Position numbers and translations under genes: made by a program. Under the pieces are notes generated by a model. The model did no database searches, had not been told where the DNA came from, and worked only from the letters and a program-made list of their open reading frames with translations. From a virus, in the IMG/VR virus record IMGVR_UViG_3300042321_001127, positions 1 through 41,750 of that record: a stretch of DNA of 41,750 nt, one strand, 5' to 3'. This document shows, one piece after another, positions 24,420 to 39,648 of the stretch. How positions within the stretch are numbered: the stretch's first letter is position 1; each line of letters opens with the position of its first letter.

Positions 24420-24563
24420 ATGACTGAAAATGAAATCAACCCAGATCTATTCGATGAAGATTTCGAAGAAGATCTAGAAGACGGATTCGAAGATTTTGAC
24501 TTCGATGAAGATGAATTAGATGAGTTGGAAGACGGAATTCTAGACGACCTAGAAGACCTGTAG
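24420..24563 (+). CDS. Extremely acidic 47-aa protein
   Basis: AAGGAG lies 7 nt before the ATG and the gene directly follows nrdJ. Twenty-six of 47 residues are Asp or Glu, and there is no Lys, Arg or His. Such composition is typical of DNA mimics that block restriction or DNA-binding proteins, and also of simple acidic tails. Which applies is unknown. A terminator follows. Confidence 0.75.
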   Translation: MTENEINPDLFDEDFEEDLEDGFEDFDFDEDELDELEDGILDDLEDL

Positions 24564-24570
24564 TCGCGCC

Positions 24571-24581
24571 CAACACAAACA
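24571..24581 (+). promoter_or_regulatory. Dispersed motif site 1: CAACACAAACA
   Basis: Copy on the + strand, in the sense of nrdJ transcription, 4 nt before the terminator stem. It is one of ten copies (see findings). Confidence 0.75.
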
Positions 24582-24585
24582 AATT

Positions 24586-24617
24586 AGCCCCCGACCATTA
24601 CGGCCGGGGGCTTTTTG
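24586..24617. terminator. Bidirectional terminator after nrdJ operon
   Basis: Stem AGCCCCCG (24586-24593) with CGGGGGCT (24605-24612), then T5. The facing - strand operon ends just beyond, so it may serve both. Confidence 0.92.
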
Positions 24618-24627
24618 TTTGCATTAA

Positions 24628-24840
24628 CTAACTAGCGACTACTCTACCTGATATGTCTGTAAGTTCATAGTAGGTTGTATTTGCTTCATCAACGTCCTCG
24701 TACGCATTGTCTAAATCCTCGATGTATATATCACCGTTGATTAGGCCTTCGTATATGTCTTGAGCATGCTCGCTGTCATCAGCGTCAAATGCAAGTACAC
24801 CACTACGTTCTGTATTGAATAGCATTTTGTATCTAGGCAT
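24628..24840 (-). CDS. Small acidic hypothetical protein
   Basis: 70 aa with AAGGAG upstream and a TAATG overlap with the preceding gene. Strand-helix-strand pattern with an acidic stretch (IEDLDNAYEDVDEA). Similar in style to other small proteins of the - block (25859, 27043). Function unknown. Confidence 0.75.
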   Translation of the reverse strand: MPRYKMLFNTERSGVLAFDADDSEHAQDIYEGLINGDIYIEDLDNAYEDVDEANTTYYELTDISGRVVAS

Positions 24841-33977: not shown

Positions 33978-34004
33978 GGGCCAGCCCTCCTTTGTGTGTG
34001 GGTT

Positions 34005-34015
34005 TGTTTGTGTTG
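34005..34015 (-). promoter_or_regulatory. Dispersed motif site 8
   Basis: CAACACAAACA on the - strand, 27 nt before the 33977 start codon and upstream of its AAAGGAGG. Confidence 0.75.
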
Positions 34016-34084
34016 GGGCGTGTCTCCACATGCCCGTTGATAGTTTATAGTCTCTATCATTATGACTTTTGATTGGCACTACAT

Positions 34085-34324
34085 TATTGCTTTCGGTCAT
34101 CGTACGTAGCCAATATCGTGTGAGCCCACGAAGTCTCACGAGGATAAAGGGTCCAACAGTGGGGTCGGATACATCTATTAGGGTTACCTATTCTCATAGG
34201 AATACCGTTCGAAGCCTTAGCACACTCTATTCCTCGCCCGTCATGTCAGAGCCGGTAGTGTTCCTTGGATTGTCTATACAATCCGATAGTAACGCGTCAC
34301 GTTACTATCGCATTGTACAGAGGC
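34085..34324 (-). ncRNA. Hairpin chain, candidate untranslated RNA
   Basis: A stretch without a credible gene. Adjacent perfect hairpins: 34285-34309 (10-bp stem, 5-nt loop) and 34267-34284 (7-bp stem, 4-nt loop). Then CCTAT-GAGA-ATAGG (34210-34197), closed by a GNRA tetraloop on the - strand, and a GTGAG/CTCAC stem near 34110-34145. It begins right after a - strand terminator, so it may be an independent small RNA or a long leader of the 33977 gene. No tRNA fold is found. Confidence 0.45.
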
Positions 34325-34371
34325 AAAAAAAAGTAGGGCGGGGGAGAGTCCCGCAACTCTCAACCCCGCCC
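34325..34371 (-). terminator. Strong - strand terminator
   Basis: Two-part stem, GGGCGGGG with CCCCGCCC and inner GAGAGT with ACTCTC (34336-34371), followed on the - strand by T8. It ends the transcript of the 34390 gene. Confidence 0.92.
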
Positions 34372-34389
34372 ATAGCATAGGTCCGCAGC

Positions 34390-34623
34390 CTATGCTTTAT
34401 TGTGTGGTGCTACGCCAAAGTCTCCCACGACATGGCGTGCTACCTCTAAATATATTTCTGCGTTAGAGAATAGATCTTCTGGGTGGTACAACTCATCGGG
34501 TTTACATCCCCAGTTATGCTTTAGATACTCTTTAAGTCCAGGAACTAATCTATCTACAAAATCACCTGGTGTCATGTATCCATGGGCAATTAGTTCTTTT
34601 TTATCTGGCATCTTTTTACTCAC
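34390..34623 (-). CDS. Hypothetical protein
   Basis: 77 aa from a GTG behind AAAGGAG that overlaps the previous gene's end by 8 nt. The longer frame from 34689 lies inside that gene. Helical, with HGYMTPGDFVDRLVPGLKEYL and YLEVARHVVGDFG. No family recognised. Confidence 0.74.
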   Translation of the reverse strand: MSKKMPDKKELIAHGYMTPGDFVDRLVPGLKEYLKHNWGCKPDELYHPEDLFSNAEIYLEVARHVVGDFGVAPHNKA

Positions 34624-34759
34624 TTTGTATCTCCTTTTTCCATAGGTTACGCATGCGCTTAGACCAACGCTTTTTGTTGGGTATAGCACTTGCTGCGTTT
34701 GAGCGTCGTAATTGCTGTATTCGTCTTACCTTGTCTTTGTTGGGGGATTTGCGGAACAT
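34616..34759 (-). CDS. Very basic 47-aa protein
   Basis: AGGAG lies 5 nt upstream. About one third Lys/Arg (RRIQQLRRSN, KKRWSKRMRNLWKK). Its start lies inside the preceding small gene in another frame, a 34-nt overlap. It may bind nucleic acid. Support is the ribosome-binding site and the chain of couplings. Confidence 0.62.
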   Translation of the reverse strand: MFRKSPNKDKVRRIQQLRRSNAASAIPNKKRWSKRMRNLWKKEIQSE

Positions 34760-34872
34760 GTGGCTCCTAGATTGTTTGTGTTGGCACACTTTTTACATAG
34801 GTCATTATCATCTATATCTGTGTACCAGTTTTGTTCATTACATTGTTTACATGGGTAAACTGAACCCGTCAT
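34726..34872 (-). CDS. Small zinc-ribbon protein (48 aa)
   Basis: YPCKQCNEQNW and DLCKKCANTNN, 15 residues apart, make a four-Cys ribbon. The ATG follows the upstream TAA directly. A motif copy encodes ANTNN. The ribosome-binding site is weak. The ribbon in frame is good evidence that it is real. Confidence 0.66.
   Translation of the reverse strand: MTGSVYPCKQCNEQNWYTDIDDNDLCKKCANTNNLGATCSANPPTKTR
34773..34783 (-). promoter_or_regulatory. Dispersed motif site 9
   Basis: CAACACAAACA on the - strand. It lies inside the zinc-ribbon gene and 14 nt before the start of the basic 47-aa gene. Confidence 0.75.
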
Positions 34873-35001
34873 TTACTTATCCATTGTTTCTTTTACTATG
34901 TGTACTTGTAGGCGCATAACACCTACCTCAACTAGCATTTTAGTTACTACTTCTTGTAGTTCGGTAAGTGCTTTATCTATATCTTCAAACTCTTTACGCA
35001 C
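34873..35001 (-). CDS. Small helical protein (42 aa)
   Basis: GTG start with AAAGGAG 9 nt upstream, overlapping the whiB-like gene end by 8 nt. One heptad-like helix (DIDKALTELQEVVTKMLVEV). The stop abuts the next ATG. Function unknown. Confidence 0.62.
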   Translation of the reverse strand: MRKEFEDIDKALTELQEVVTKMLVEVGVMRLQVHIVKETMDK

Positions 35002-35260
35002 TTTTCTTTTCTCCTTTCAACCTACCAGTGTTATCTAGTGGTGTGGTGTAACCTAAGCCTTCGTACATAACTCCAGCCCAGATACCTTGGATACCTGCTG
35101 TATTGCGTGAGTAAGTAAAGCACTTGGTATACATAGAGCAAGACTTACAGATAGGTACTACTAACTGTAATGATTTGCGGGTATCATCAAGAGATGAAGG
35201 GAAGAACATCTCTTGATCCATAGTGGCACAGGCTTGTGTGCCGTCAAACTCGGGGAACAT
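34994..35260 (-). CDS. whiB: WhiB-like iron-sulfur transcription factor, second copy
   Basis: 88 aa with all four Cys in canonical spacing: Cys11, then ICKSCSMYTKC (Cys38, Cys41, Cys47). FFPSS follows the first Cys and GIQGIWAGV is the family's Gly-Trp turn. The tail is basic. It has no close resemblance to the 4082 copy outside these motifs, so the two probably have separate targets. The ATG overlaps the upstream TAA. It lies in a block of Cys-rich miniproteins. Confidence 0.88.
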   Translation of the reverse strand: MFPEFDGTQACATMDQEMFFPSSLDDTRKSLQLVVPICKSCSMYTKCFTYSRNTAGIQGIWAGVMYEGLGYTTPLDNTGRLKGEKKSA

Positions 35261-35412
35261 TACTTGTTTCGCCTTTCATCTCGTAGTGCTACTTGTAGGC
35301 GTCTAACCTCTTTGGTTAGGCGGATGTTCTCACGCCAAAATAAGCACATGACTGTCACTGAACCTAACAGCGCAATCATTATGCCAAGCGTTGTACCATT
35401 ATCTAGTACCAT
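35260..35412 (-). CDS. Small single-pass membrane protein (50 aa)
   Basis: One transmembrane helix (TLGIMIALLGSVTVMCLFW) and a basic heptad tail (RENIRLTKEVRRLQVALRDE). It overlaps the whiB-like gene start (TAATG). It is preceded by copy 1 of the duplicated RNA element. Possibly a membrane-anchored regulator, by inference. Confidence 0.68.
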   Translation of the reverse strand: MVLDNGTTLGIMIALLGSVTVMCLFWRENIRLTKEVRRLQVALRDERRNK

Positions 35413-35432
35413 GATGACCTGCTTTCTACTCT

Positions 35433-35526
35433 CAGATAGAGAGTGGGAGATACATAGGGAAAGTGAAGACCTACACGCTACCGTGAGCCTCAGCCTATTG
35501 TCCTATGTACCTTCCGCTTACTACCT
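35433..35526 (-). ncRNA. Duplicated RNA element, copy 1
   Basis: The ends, 35433-35458 and 35502-35526, pair into an imperfect stem of about 18 bp. The element closely matches copy 2 (36001-36114): 23 of 26 positions in one arm and 21 of 25 in the other. Differences keep pairing (a G-C becomes A-U, a wobble becomes Watson-Crick). It lies between two - strand genes, 21 nt before a start codon. Confidence 0.62.
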
Positions 35527-35543
35527 TGCTTTTTTCGGGGGGA

Positions 35544-35735
35544 TTACTTGCCAAACTTGAGCCAGTTAAGAAAGGCTATGGCAATAGATAGAGGCACCTT
35601 ATGTGACGGGGTGCGATAGATTTGATAGTTGAATAGGTACAACCAATCAATAGTTTGCTTACTAGACATACCACAAGCACGAGCAACCTCGTGAACACGA
35701 GGCGGGCTTGCTACTGTGTATTTACGATTGGACAC
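35544..35735 (-). CDS. IF2_N-like / HTH small protein
   Basis: 63 aa from GTG with AAAGGAG upstream. PPRVHEVARACGMSSKQTIDWLYL matches the N-terminal helical module of translation factor IF-2 (consensus around V-x-E-L-A-x-x-L-G-x-S-S-K). The basic remainder could contact DNA or RNA. In a phage it may be a small nucleic-acid-binding regulator. Confidence in the fold is moderate. Confidence 0.62.
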   Translation of the reverse strand: MSNRKYTVASPPRVHEVARACGMSSKQTIDWLYLFNYQIYRTPSHKVPLSIAIAFLNWLKFGK

Positions 35736-35860
35736 TTACTGTCTCCTTTGGTGAAAAAACGGCGGGGGACTGTTTGATTACTATCTTTTTAGATAGAAGA
35801 GCATAGACAATGAGACCATTGATAGATACAACAGTCTTAGATGTGGTGATAGTAATTGAC

Positions 35861-35974
35861 TCAGTAATGGCAATCACACTCACATGGACCACACAGACAC
35901 TCTCCAGCCTTGTAACACTTGGAGTGTTGGATAGCAGCCTTTTGATGACTAACTTTACAGCAATCTGTACTCAT
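35861..35974 (-). CDS. Cys-rich miniprotein (37 aa)
   Basis: AAGGAGG lies 6 nt before the ATG, an excellent ribosome-binding site. Eight Cys of 37 residues, ending GECLCGPCECDCHY with alternating Cys, plus three His. This resembles metallothionein-type metal clusters. It follows copy 2 of the RNA element. Confidence 0.7.
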   Translation of the reverse strand: MSTDCCKVSHQKAAIQHSKCYKAGECLCGPCECDCHY

Positions 35975-36000
35975 AACAGACCTCCTTGTTAGATACTCCA

Positions 36001-36114
36001 CAGATAGGGAGTGAGAGATACACAGGACGGAGCAATATCACATTGGCTCTCCTTTTATCCAGTCCTTACGCTGACCAAGGCGCAGGCTTCCTATGTATCT
36101 TTCACTAACTACCT
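36001..36114 (-). ncRNA. Duplicated RNA element, copy 2
   Basis: Arms 36001-36026 and 36090-36114 pair over about 17 bp on the - strand. The right arm contains the stop codon of the 36105 gene, and the left arm ends 27 nt before the 35974 start. The middle is longer than in copy 1 and not alike. RNase III-type processing or a leader switch would both fit. Confidence 0.62.
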
Positions 36115-36215
36115 GATAACTCTTCGCAATAACACTCTATGTAGCCACACTTGGGACAAGTAGGGCATACGCAATGCTTGTGTGTATGACCACAGTCACA
36201 CAGTTCTTTACTCAT
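36105..36215 (-). CDS. Cys-rich miniprotein (36 aa)
   Basis: GGGAG lies 5 nt before the ATG. It reads MSKELCDCGHTHKHCVCPTC and then CGYIECYC: eight Cys and three His. Metal-binding by composition. It is not clearly homologous to the 35861 protein but of the same style. Confidence 0.68.
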   Translation of the reverse strand: MSKELCDCGHTHKHCVCPTCPKCGYIECYCEELSGS

Positions 36216-36530
36216 AAGCACTCCCTTCTTACCTGATAACAGACCTAGACCCTAGTCGTAGACCTGGTTGTACTGCCACGCTATGTATGTACATAGTTAG
36301 TAGTGGCCTAGCCCGCGTATGAAGGGTGCGGACTAGACCACCTAACAGAAAGAACACTTAGTTAGTTAATAGGCTAGCGACATGGCTACTGTGTGTGTCT
36401 ATACATCCTGTTCATCCACACCTCGCAGGATGGGTATTACTAGGGAGTAGCAGTACGACACTATGTATGCCCACATTATGGACATACATAGAGGCAGGGA
36501 GCATTTCTGCCCCCTGCGACTATGACTAGA
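36216..36530 (-). ncRNA. Gene-free, hairpin-dense stretch
   Basis: No credible gene on either strand over 315 nt. Hairpins: CTAGCCCGC (36308-36316) with GCGGACTAG (36328-36336); CATCCTG with CAGGATG near 36390-36432; CTATGTATG (36461-36469) with CATACATAG (36483-36491); and 36494-36517, a 10-bp stem that on the - strand closes on a GAAA tetraloop. It lies downstream of the 36531 gene and upstream of the Cys-rich genes. Confidence 0.45.
36494..36517 (-). terminator. GNRA-capped hairpin after the 36531 gene
   Basis: GCAGGGGGCA-GAAA-TGCTCCCTGC on the - strand, with one wobble pair, 14 nt after the gene's stop. There is no T-run, so this is a possible factor-assisted terminator or mRNA 3'-end stabiliser. 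Confidence 0.45.
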
Positions 36531-37055
36531 CTAAACTGTTTCTAGTGTGTTCTCCATCAACTCGTTGAGAGAAGGGAGGTCGATACTGCGTAGCAAGGTG
36601 TTGATGATGTCTTTCACCTTGCCTTCCTCGGTGTTGGTTGTAGTACCCGCACCGAGTAGTGCCTTAGCGTGCTTTTCCAAGCCTGCGAATGATGTCTTGC
36701 GTACGGCATCATAGTCGATAGGAGTGTTGTCCAGTTCCTTCTGTAGTTCGTTGATACGAGCAATGACTGTATCTACGCCCTCTGTCTGGATGTGGTTGTA
36801 AATCTCTGCCCACTTAGCAGACAATACAGACGAACGCTTGACGATGTCCTTGGTTTCCATACCCAGACGGGCTGAGATGTAGCCACCAAAGAGTGCTACC
36901 GCTTGACCAGCAGATGGTTTGCCACCATCATACACATCAAGGATAGTTGCTTCAGGGTTCTGCTTAAACCCCTGTGCGAACACATCAATGGACACGGACT
37001 TGGACTCTAAAGATTTGTAAGAGGTCTTTAGTTCCTCTATTGTGATTGTAGTCAT
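36531..37055 (-). CDS. Hypothetical protein, first gene of the leftward block
   Basis: 174 aa with AAAGGGA upstream. Helical, with a Gly-rich middle (DGGKPSAGQAVALFGGYISARLG) and a C-terminal leucine-rich helix. As the first gene after the divergent control region, with a structured 5' leader, it may be expressed early or in a lysogen-like state. No family recognised. Confidence 0.77.
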   Translation of the reverse strand: MTTITIEELKTSYKSLESKSVSIDVFAQGFKQNPEATILDVYDGGKPSAGQAVALFGGYISARLGMETKDIVKRSSVLSAKWAEIYNHIQTEGVDTVIARINELQKELDNTPIDYDAVRKTSFAGLEKHAKALLGAGTTTNTEEGKVKDIINTLLRSIDLPSLNELMENTLETV

Positions 37056-37224
37056 AGGTTTCCCTTTAACGGTAAATCAGGGCGCTATGCCCCGTGCTAC
37101 CTATGGCACAGCACTATCTGCCACCATAGGTAGCGACACAATAGAAATGTCGCTTATGCCTAAGGGTAAGCCTTCTACCCTAACTTTTGCTCTGGACACC
37201 CTAATCTTATTTGTCCCTTTTTGA
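37056..37224 (-). promoter_or_regulatory. Structured 5' leader of the leftward block
   Basis: Three hairpins: GCTACCTATGG (37096-37106) with CCATAGGTAGC (37124-37134), 11 bp perfect; GCGACA with TGTCGC (37133-37153); and AGGGT with ACCCT (about 37163-37181). They lie between the probable leftward promoter and the start codon at 37055. Confidence 0.5.
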
Positions 37225-37287
37225 CCCCCCCACCCTTAAACGCCTTTGCCCCAATTTGTCTTCCAGGTGAGATTGACTAGTGGGCCT

Positions 37288-37317
37288 ATTATGGGTATGG
37301 CAGTGGCCAAATGTCCG
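37288..37317 (-). promoter_or_regulatory. Candidate leftward promoter
   Basis: On the - strand: CGGACA (37317-37312), an 18-nt spacer, CATAAT (37293-37288). One copy of the repeated word lies in the spacer. The leader to the 37055 start would be about 225 nt. Confidence 0.42.
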
Positions 37318-37400
37318 AATTGTGACATTTATAACATTTTGTAAATTTGGCGGGGGAAATCGGGGGAACTATGATCATAGAAATTTTTGGGGGTATACAT

Positions 37401-37429
37401 AGGACAGGCAGTGGCTAATTGGCTATACT
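37401..37429 (+). promoter_or_regulatory. Candidate rightward promoter for the hsp20 gene
   Basis: AGGACA (37401-37406), a 17-nt spacer, TATACT (37424-37429). The spacer begins with the repeated word GGCAGTGGCTAA. Predicted leader about 53 nt. Confidence 0.55.
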
Positions 37430-37488
37430 GGTAATAGAGCGCTCAACAATGAGGCTCAAACTACTAGTTATCGTCTAAGGAGATAATT

Positions 37489-38025
37489 ATGGCTATTATG
37501 CCGTCATCAGGAAAACACGACCCACAACACCATACAGATCGCTACACAGATCCGTGGGGCCCAAAGAGTCCGAAGGACTACTCTTATACTAAGATCCCTA
37601 AGATCGACACACCAATTACCATTACATCACTGTTTCCACAGTTTGATCGGTGGGCAATCGGGTTCGATCCTCTATTTGATACATTCAAGCATGTCTCTGC
37701 CAATACTAAGACCGCAGGGTATCCTCCATACAACATCTTTAAATCAAAGGACAACTATGTCCTTGAGATCGCTGTAGCAGGGTTTGCTAAGGAAGATATC
37801 AAGATTACCGTACAAGAGCTCACACTGACCGTAGAAGGCTCCTCAATGCCATCTGTGGACCAGTACGTGCACAAGGGTATCGCAGCACGTGACTTCAAGC
37901 AAGACTTCGTCTTAGCTGAGTACGTAGTTGTAAATGGTGCAGAGTTGAAGGATGGTATGCTTCGTATTATATTGAAGCAAGAGCTACCAGAAGCAAAGAA
38001 GGCAAAGACTATCGAAATCTCATAG
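37489..38025 (+). CDS. Small heat-shock protein, Hsp20/alpha-crystallin family
   Basis: 178 aa with AAGGAG upstream. The N-terminal arm includes GFDPLFDTFKHVS. The alpha-crystallin domain (about 80-170) starts YPPYNIFKSKDNYVLEIAVA and continues GFAKEDIKITVQELTLTVEG, YVHKGIAARDFKQDFVLAEY and LKDGMLRIILKQELPE. It is an ATP-independent chaperone that holds unfolding proteins. Similar IbpA-like genes are common in cyanophages and other aquatic phages, where they may help virion assembly. It is the first gene right of the divergent control region. Confidence 0.94.
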   Translation: MAIMPSSGKHDPQHHTDRYTDPWGPKSPKDYSYTKIPKIDTPITITSLFPQFDRWAIGFDPLFDTFKHVSANTKTAGYPPYNIFKSKDNYVLEIAVAGFAKEDIKITVQELTLTVEGSSMPSVDQYVHKGIAARDFKQDFVLAEYVVVNGAELKDGMLRIILKQELPEAKKAKTIEIS

Positions 38026-38905: not shown

Positions 38906-39085
38906 ATGGGAAGAAATCATTTTTCTAAAGCTGGTGGGCCATATTTTATTAACAACGGTGTCACTAGACATAAAGACCATCATAAGCACGATGACTCTCA
39001 TACTCACTCATATATGTTTGAGGTCGGGCCTTTTCGCAAGTTATTTAATTTAGTAAAGTCTAAATTTAAAAAGGGGCCACTATGA
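38906..39085 (+). CDS. His-rich small protein (59 aa)
   Basis: GAGGG lies upstream of the ATG at 38906. The middle is His/Asp-rich (RHKDHHKHDDSHTHSY) and could bind metal. The C-terminus is basic and amphipathic. The stop overlaps the next ATG (ATGA). Function unknown. Confidence 0.7.
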   Translation: MGRNHFSKAGGPYFINNGVTRHKDHHKHDDSHTHSYMFEVGPFRKLFNLVKSKFKKGPL

Positions 39086-39648
39086 CAACGCTTGCTGCAA
39101 TACAAGGTGATGGTTGGACTGTTATTGGATGTGACTCACGCGCATCAGATGAAGATGGTCGTTTCATGGAACTGTCTACGGATAAAATAATTAATAACAA
39201 TGGTGTACTGATAGCGGTCTCCGGCGCTTCTAGAGGTGGAAACATTGCACAGTTTGGTTGGAAGCCACCAAAGCCTCGTGTAGGTGAAGATCTAGATTTA
39301 TTTATGACACGGACATTTATACCTTCAATGCGTAAAGCTTTTCAAGATGCAGGCTTTGAAGGTAAAGAAGACGGTGATTCAGCTTGGCATGACTCTAACC
39401 TGTTAGTTTCTGTTCGTGGAGTCATCTACCCTATATTTAATGACTACTCTTGGGATAGAGAAGCCCGCAACGTATACTACGCAGGTAGCGGCGGAGATTT
39501 AGCACTTGGTGCTTTGGAAGCCCTAAACTACACAAAAATTAAAACCCCACAAGAAGCAGAGTCAATTCTTAAGAAAGCTATTGCTATTGCTATTAAGCAT
39601 GATATTTATTCTGGCGGAAAGATCGTTACACGCATACAAGAGGCGTAA
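39082..39648 (+). CDS. Proteasome beta/HslV-like Ntn hydrolase
   Basis: A 188-aa protein. After Met removal the N-terminus is TTLAAIQGDGWTVIGCDSR. Thr1 is the expected nucleophile and Asp17 falls exactly at the catalytic position of beta subunits. A Lys follows at 34 where Lys33 is expected, and YYAGSGGDLALGAL matches the Gly-Ser-Gly region. It is probably a self-compartmentalising or single-ring peptidase, or an inactive relative. It precedes an abundant-looking virion-type gene, so processing of a structural protein is possible. Confidence 0.82.
   Translation: MTTLAAIQGDGWTVIGCDSRASDEDGRFMELSTDKIINNNGVLIAVSGASRGGNIAQFGWKPPKPRVGEDLDLFMTRTFIPSMRKAFQDAGFEGKEDGDSAWHDSNLLVSVRGVIYPIFNDYSWDREARNVYYAGSGGDLALGALEALNYTKIKTPQEAESILKKAIAIAIKHDIYSGGKIVTRIQEA

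Follow-up and report, generated by a model that had tools for sequence, protein, structure and literature searches.

A conserved RNA hairpin family before tiny genes in uncultured, probable actinobacteriophages

Tiny phage genes come and go, and how they are fitted into operons for expression is largely open. The window analyzed here, a stretch of 41,750 bases from virus record IMGVR_UViG_3300042321_001127, raises this question in a concrete form. Two similar elements lie between tiny genes of a leftward operon, and each can fold into a long imperfect hairpin. The original prediction described them as a duplicated RNA element with compensatory changes and offered RNase III sites, leader switches or mobile hairpin elements as explanations. 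We asked what these elements are and what they could do at the borders of small genes.

The window encodes two WhiB proteins and a RecA (PF00154, E 1.8e-51). Based on the WhiB genes and the nearest cultured phages, we infer that the hosts are actinobacteria, probably water-dwelling ones. The leftward operon diverges from a rightward HSP20 gene (37489-38025, + strand, PF00011) near 37.2-37.5 kb and is headed by a 174-aa ORF (36531-37055, - strand) that had no match in Pfam and PHROG searches. Upstream of this first ORF, several hairpins (CUACCUAUGG...CCAUAGGUAG and others) at 37060-37200 (- strand) form a possible leader or promoter region. The virus also carries a proteasome-like hydrolase gene (39082-39648, + strand, PF00227, E 4.6e-7). 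A tRNA search of the window found none, and a distant blastn search of 34000-38000 against 50,697 phage records gave no match.

Two elements and their family

Both elements are present on the - strand at the predicted sites. Copy 1 (35434-35526) consists of a 5' arm at 35502-35526 (columns 12-36 of alignment A2, with covariation), a variable centre of 43 nt at 35459-35501 and a 3' arm at 35434-35458 (columns 106-130). Copy 2 (36002-36114) has its 5' arm at 36090-36114, a centre of 63 nt at 36027-36089 and its 3' arm at 36002-36026 in the same alignment. The two copies share 22 of 26 positions in the 5' arm (85%) and 22 of 25 in the 3' arm, where 23/26 and 21/25 had first been counted. The arms of each copy do pair, and the earlier estimate of about 17-18 bp was too low: RNAfold gave 21 base pairs in copy 1 and about 23 in copy 2. 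The predicted exchange of G-C in copy 1 for A-U in copy 2 is real, as are the two changes to Watson-Crick pairs (C.A to U-A and G.U to A-U); a fourth pair change, U-A to U-G, had been overlooked. Predicted at 37 °C, like all fold energies given here, copy 1 folds at -37.6 kcal/mol (z -3.03, 2/200 shuffles as good) and copy 2 at -45.5 kcal/mol (z -4.10, 0/200). More stable folds exist in the window. The most stable two, at 34271-34380 and 24531-24640 (both - strand, z -11.4 and -9.2), are a long near-perfect hairpin beside GC-rich hairpins and a terminator-like nested hairpin.

The placement before - strand start codons, next to Cys-rich miniproteins and a WhiB gene, was also borne out. Copy 2 is flanked by two Cys-rich ORFs, one of 36 aa (36105-36215), whose last codons and stop are overlapped by the 5' arm of the element, and one of 37 aa (35861-35974) that begins directly after the element at ATG 35974. 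Copy 1 is preceded by a 63-aa ORF (35544-35735) and followed directly by a 50-aa membrane-like ORF (35260-35412), which begins at ATG 35412 and has the WhiB gene (34994-35260, Pfam PF02467, E 1.6e-7) after it. The order of element, small membrane ORF and WhiB recurs in four relatives (L008, L015, L019 and L020).

A covariance model, R1, was built from 25 members, and a looser pattern scan of all loci was added. Together they yielded about 45 distinct elements in related IMG/VR virus records. R1 matched copy 1 at 35423-35537 with 91.5 bits and copy 2 at 35991-36125 with 76.0 bits. R1 was run on 25 whole virus records and matched in 22 of them; each holds about one to three elements, grouped in a single region, and copies are restricted to one syntenic region per genome. 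The inner-arm pattern matched 22 stretches in viral contigs, several of them in contigs recovered independently through the neighbouring MoxR-like ATPase and HSP20 proteins. Eleven pattern matches that by eye had no outer stem or start-codon context were set aside; R1 was applied to two of these and matched neither. The single pattern match in a cellular genome was unsupported by the covariance model.

Rfam gave no match to the window, and none to the elements at the gathering threshold or at E<=1. The sole hit, to mir-641 on the opposite strand, was at chance level (E 0.15) and scored far under that family's gathering cutoff. R1 found nothing at E<=10 in positions 30000-52797 of TM4, which is most of the right half of that genome, and no match in the searched parts of BRock and Cantare, the nearest cultured phages by protein similarity. 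The two window elements are therefore members of a previously unlisted RNA hairpin family, whose lineage is that of uncultured actinobacteriophages with a leftward operon of tiny genes. Further family members and stability above shuffled controls, the two points on which the original prediction had staked itself, were both found.

Stems P1 and P2 and their place between genes

The main stem, P1, covers about 25 positions arranged as 6 bp, a 2x2 mismatch, 5 bp, a 1x1 mismatch and 11 bp. The 1x1 mismatch is conserved (A.C in 18/25) and divides P1 into an upper part of 11 bp and a lower half. In alignment A2, made with MAFFT and without structure, P1 comprises 25 pairs, with 87.5% of cells paired. 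Here 14 of the 25 pairs were double-changed against 6.6±1.3 in shuffles, a count biased in part at the inner 10 pairs since members had been collected by requiring pairing there. When the P1 partner was slid, the signal was lost (at most 7 double-changed pairs). The outer 15 pairs, which lie outside member selection, were therefore tested alone and gave 9 double-changed pairs against 4.4±1.0, a value reached in 0/500 shuffles.

The outer helix contains 51 G-U cells and 9 A-C cells. Read on the opposite strand, a G-U pair becomes an A-C mismatch, so this excess identifies the structured strand as the one co-directional with the genes. The forward strand also scored above the reverse in every element that the covariance model matched on both. 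The transcribed strand is thus the structured one. The inner arm sequence is well conserved (G..ACA.A.G / C.U.UGU..C), while in three elements (L008, L136 and L129) the arms have strongly diverged yet remain paired. Selection on the RNA structure of P1 is strongly supported by this covariation. The earlier phrase "structure rather than sequence" can be kept for its first half only, since the inner arms are conserved in sequence as well.

A second, alternative mini-hairpin, P2, had been missed. The 3' arm ends in CACUCUCUAUCUG and is followed by GAGAGU or an equivalent, which together form P2 directly upstream of the ribosome-binding site. In copy 1, P2 (ACUCUC-UAUCU-GAGAGU) lies at 35428-35444, and in copy 2 (ACUCC...GGAGU) at 35995-36012, in both cases overlapping the 3' arm. 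P2 was present at an MFE of -5 or below in 39/45 elements against 8-15/45 in shifted windows, with a mean z of -1.95±0.20 against -0.15 to -0.70. When P2 strands were swapped between elements, the real pairing was reached in 0/2000 permutations, and compensated variants occur (ACUAUC/GAUAGU, ACUUCC/GGAAGU and AUUGGU/ACCAAU). Among the rare 5' strands alone the result was not significant (373/2000), partly because the partner in L120 and L129 falls beyond the stretch used. Members without P2 include L019, L020, L027 and L113. Because P2 is built from nucleotides that also form the lower half of P1, the two are mutually exclusive. Full P1 is predicted to be favoured over upper P1 plus P2 in 44/45 elements, by a median of 5.1 kcal/mol, and P2 would therefore be expected only where the 5' arm has been cleaved away or is masked.

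The elements span the gap from a stop codon, or from a structured RNA of about 300 nt, to the next start. A Shine-Dalgarno (SD) sequence and the start of an ORF of at least 30 aa lie within 40 nt of the model end in 36/45 elements, compared with 11.8% of random nearby positions. The SD lies outside both P1 and P2. The upstream edge is not fixed: it can lie within the last codons of the preceding ORF, as the 5' arm does in copy 2, L035, L142, L136 and L129, or a few nucleotides past the stop. The first element in many clusters follows the structured RNA and has no ORF directly upstream, and the role of the elements should therefore be independent of an upstream ribosome. Tandem first copies in L120, L131 and L038 have no start codon after them.

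The structured RNA itself (36224-36523, - strand), likewise absent from the original prediction, is noncoding, conserved and about 240-330 nt long; the 174-aa ORF lies on one side of it and the first hairpin element on the other. It was aligned as A3 in 17 sequences, the window and 16 relatives, and had no Rfam match. It has two hairpins on the 5' side, a domain on the 3' side and a tail, CURUUAUCAGGUA, that hardly varies. In its RNAalifold structure, 15/29 pairs were double-changed against 8.8 in shuffles; since that structure came from A3 itself, the comparison is somewhat favourable. This upstream RNA is the second viral RNA here that had not been listed. In six of the sequences, including the window, one of its hairpin loops carries a conserved C-rich CCCUUCA; pairing of this loop with SD sequences is conceivable.

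Exchange of centres and genes at element borders

The centres of the elements range from 0 to 111 nt and fall into 25 clusters among 45 elements. In L008, L128 and L007 only 0-5 nt remain, and what is kept is therefore the stem, not a loop aptamer. On the same grounds, a riboswitch with a conserved loop aptamer was rejected. By centre clustering and pattern scan, the copy 1 centre (GACUGAGGCU...AGCGUGUAGGUC-like) belongs to the commonest class, class 0, which also occurs in ten other elements, and the copy 2 centre is unrelated to it. The window therefore holds two copies of an element, as predicted, though not a simple recent duplication. Class 0 centres precede several unrelated genes, a gene beginning MSVQARLCC follows three different centre classes, and some classes are common to diverged genomes. 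By eye, the internal loop of the class 0 centre (GAC-UGAG-GCU / AGC-GUGUAG-GUC) seems to recur with its strands swapped in class 5 centres (L029 and L036), which would suggest a 3D motif that is retained whichever way round it lies.

Three relatives with nearly identical flanks, L138, L142 and L137, differ from each other by a gene cassette, an extra tandem element and a replaced centre. The cassette, a 36-aa Cys-rich gene, shows precise presence and absence: L142 has it, and L138 and L137 do not. It lies between two direct repeats of TTATCAGGTA and is also found in L035 and in the window (36105-36215). In the window, one repeat (36110-36119, - strand) forms the 5' edge of copy 2 and the other (36230-36239, - strand) is the 3' tail of the upstream structured RNA. 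Relatives that differ exactly at element borders are direct comparative evidence that these borders, not recognized as such before, act as seams for the gain, loss and exchange of genes, elements and centres.

The exchange machinery is probably ordinary homologous recombination. Phage_integrase (PF00589) was absent from 15 records with positive controls, several of these records being fragments; no RNase III homologue was found in 15 records and no Y1 transposase in 13. Given these results and the RecA encoded in the window, homologous recombination would be the simplest route.

Possible function and comparison with known systems

The elements probably mark sites of message cutting or control as well as gene exchange. 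Our main reading, to which we assign a probability of roughly 0.45, is an intercistronic RNA hairpin that processes or insulates the message and whose arms double as recombination seams. In the ground state, the whole gap from the stop of one gene, or the end of the structured RNA, to the next ribosome-binding site would be folded into P1, with a dispensable and exchangeable tip. P1 would serve as a processing site for an RNase III-like endonuclease that cuts the polycistronic RNA into gene-sized pieces. Like RNase III sites, it lies between cistrons and forms an imperfect helix of about two turns, with 21-23 pairs per copy. Since the 15 records contained no RNase III homologue, the enzyme must be assumed to come from the host. 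Removal or unwinding of the 5' arm would free the 3' arm to refold into P2, and this hairpin, at the new 5' end and beside the ribosome-binding site, may protect the downstream piece. Processing with a protective 5' hairpin would explain the gap-wide stem, the dispensable tip, the second hairpin and the free ribosome-binding site together, and it needs neither an upstream ribosome nor a ligand. RNase III requires no conserved inner arm sequence, so a sequence-reading protein may be involved; the conserved inner arms leave room for such a factor or for selection that keeps arms alike for recombination. It is possible, if tentative, that the element is a dual-job junction, in which removal or occupation of the 5' arm would give every downstream gene a mini-hairpin that protects or regulates it, while the arms accept any small gene or tip. 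If true, this would be a plug-in expression cassette for phage accessory genes, with control kept on insertion.

The roles first proposed come close to the best readings, although the original prediction did not single out one mechanism among them. A leader switch would take the form of a bistable leader without cleavage, where a protein, a small RNA, temperature or an upstream ribosome shifts the RNA between P1 and upper P1 plus P2 and so changes downstream translation. Two supported, mutually exclusive structures that share the ACUCUC strand fit such a switch, as does the position of P2 adjoining the SD, and a terminating ribosome could open the 5' arm in the five elements where it overlaps the upstream ORF. 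We nevertheless regard it as doubtful: the SD is free in both structures, full P1 is favoured by about 5 kcal/mol, first elements have no adjoining upstream ORF, and the tip, which varies widely and can be lost, does not resemble a riboswitch aptamer. Excision of the hairpins as small RNAs, with variable centres that pair with different targets, is very unlikely. Stable hairpins of about 100 nt with a conserved scaffold and many centre classes, some of them shared across diverged genomes, would suit it, but centres of only 0-5 nt would not.

Two further explanations place the function in DNA. Gene cassettes could be mobilized by a single DNA strand folded like attC, or by a small, non-autonomous transposon in hairpin form. 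Conserved arms around a variable tip, a single orientation, small genes between copies and the precise gene gain and loss at TTATCAGGTA repeats all speak for it. It is still unlikely given the negative searches for integrase in 15 records and for Y1 transposase in 13, the confinement of copies to one syntenic region per genome and the attC core RYYYAAC, which does not lie at the element ends in L114, the one locus scanned; P2 and the conserved placement before start codons would also be left unexplained. A phage regulator that binds paired sites in duplex DNA, the role suggested for the extended start-associated sequences (ESAS) of Cluster K mycobacteriophages, would account for the conserved inner arms near WhiB genes, and ESAS occupy the same kind of place, with DNA binding favoured by their authors (PMC3203893). 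This explanation is quite improbable in view of the covariation, the asymmetry of G-U over A-C, the strongly diverged arms that still pair and the spacing from near zero to 111 nt. A sigma-70 consensus scan, to which other promoter types are invisible, listed no promoter-like site within the elements, which also led us to set aside a promoter explanation. Whatever its function, the family offers a concrete, testable junction: a structure-conserved RNA before many tiny genes, with gains and losses at its borders.

Several known systems resemble this junction in part. The T7 RNase III sites, such as R1.1, are long, imperfect hairpins that lie between cistrons of early polycistronic RNA and contain internal mismatches (PMC8708148). 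The present elements share this form, and cleavage would be common to both if our reading is correct; conserved arm sequence, an exchangeable centre and the alternative P2 set them apart. The attC site of integrons is a folded hairpin with an unpaired spacer and a variable terminal structure between cassette genes (PMC2727003). This likeness is one of shape only, as no integrase was detected in 15 records, the family shows an RNA-strand pairing bias, and neither of the two elements of L114 has the boxes RYYYAAC/GTTRRRY at its ends.

Closest in evolutionary behaviour are the PeSL cassettes of T4-type phages, as gene shuffling at cassette borders is seen here too. The PeSLs of Arbiol 2010 and Comeau 2014 reportedly join an early promoter to a terminator-like stem-loop. 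In the elements here, the sigma-70 scan listed no promoter-like site, and no U-tract follows P2. Passages of PMC4503421 link these small intergenic stem-loops to the shuffling of small genes.

Closest in position are the ESAS, which also lie in wide intergenic gaps directly upstream of the starts of small non-structural genes of actinobacteriophages, and whose inverted repeats, mostly in one orientation, enclose a spacer of variable length. ESAS are 17-bp inverted repeats with a spacer of 4-13 bp and are linked to the 13-bp SAS GGGATAGGAGCCC at the start codon; their authors judged base-pairing unsupported and proposed DNA binding (PMC3203893). Similar repeats occur in Cluster EF Microbacterium phages (PMC7302621). 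By inspection, ordinary SD sequences and no SAS precede the start codons here, and TM4 30000-52797 had no covariance-model match. The present family is further distinguished by a stem of about 25 positions with strong covariation, a centre of 0-111 nt and P2. Start-associated inverted repeats of actinobacteriophages can therefore be RNA hairpins, the very possibility judged unsupported for ESAS.
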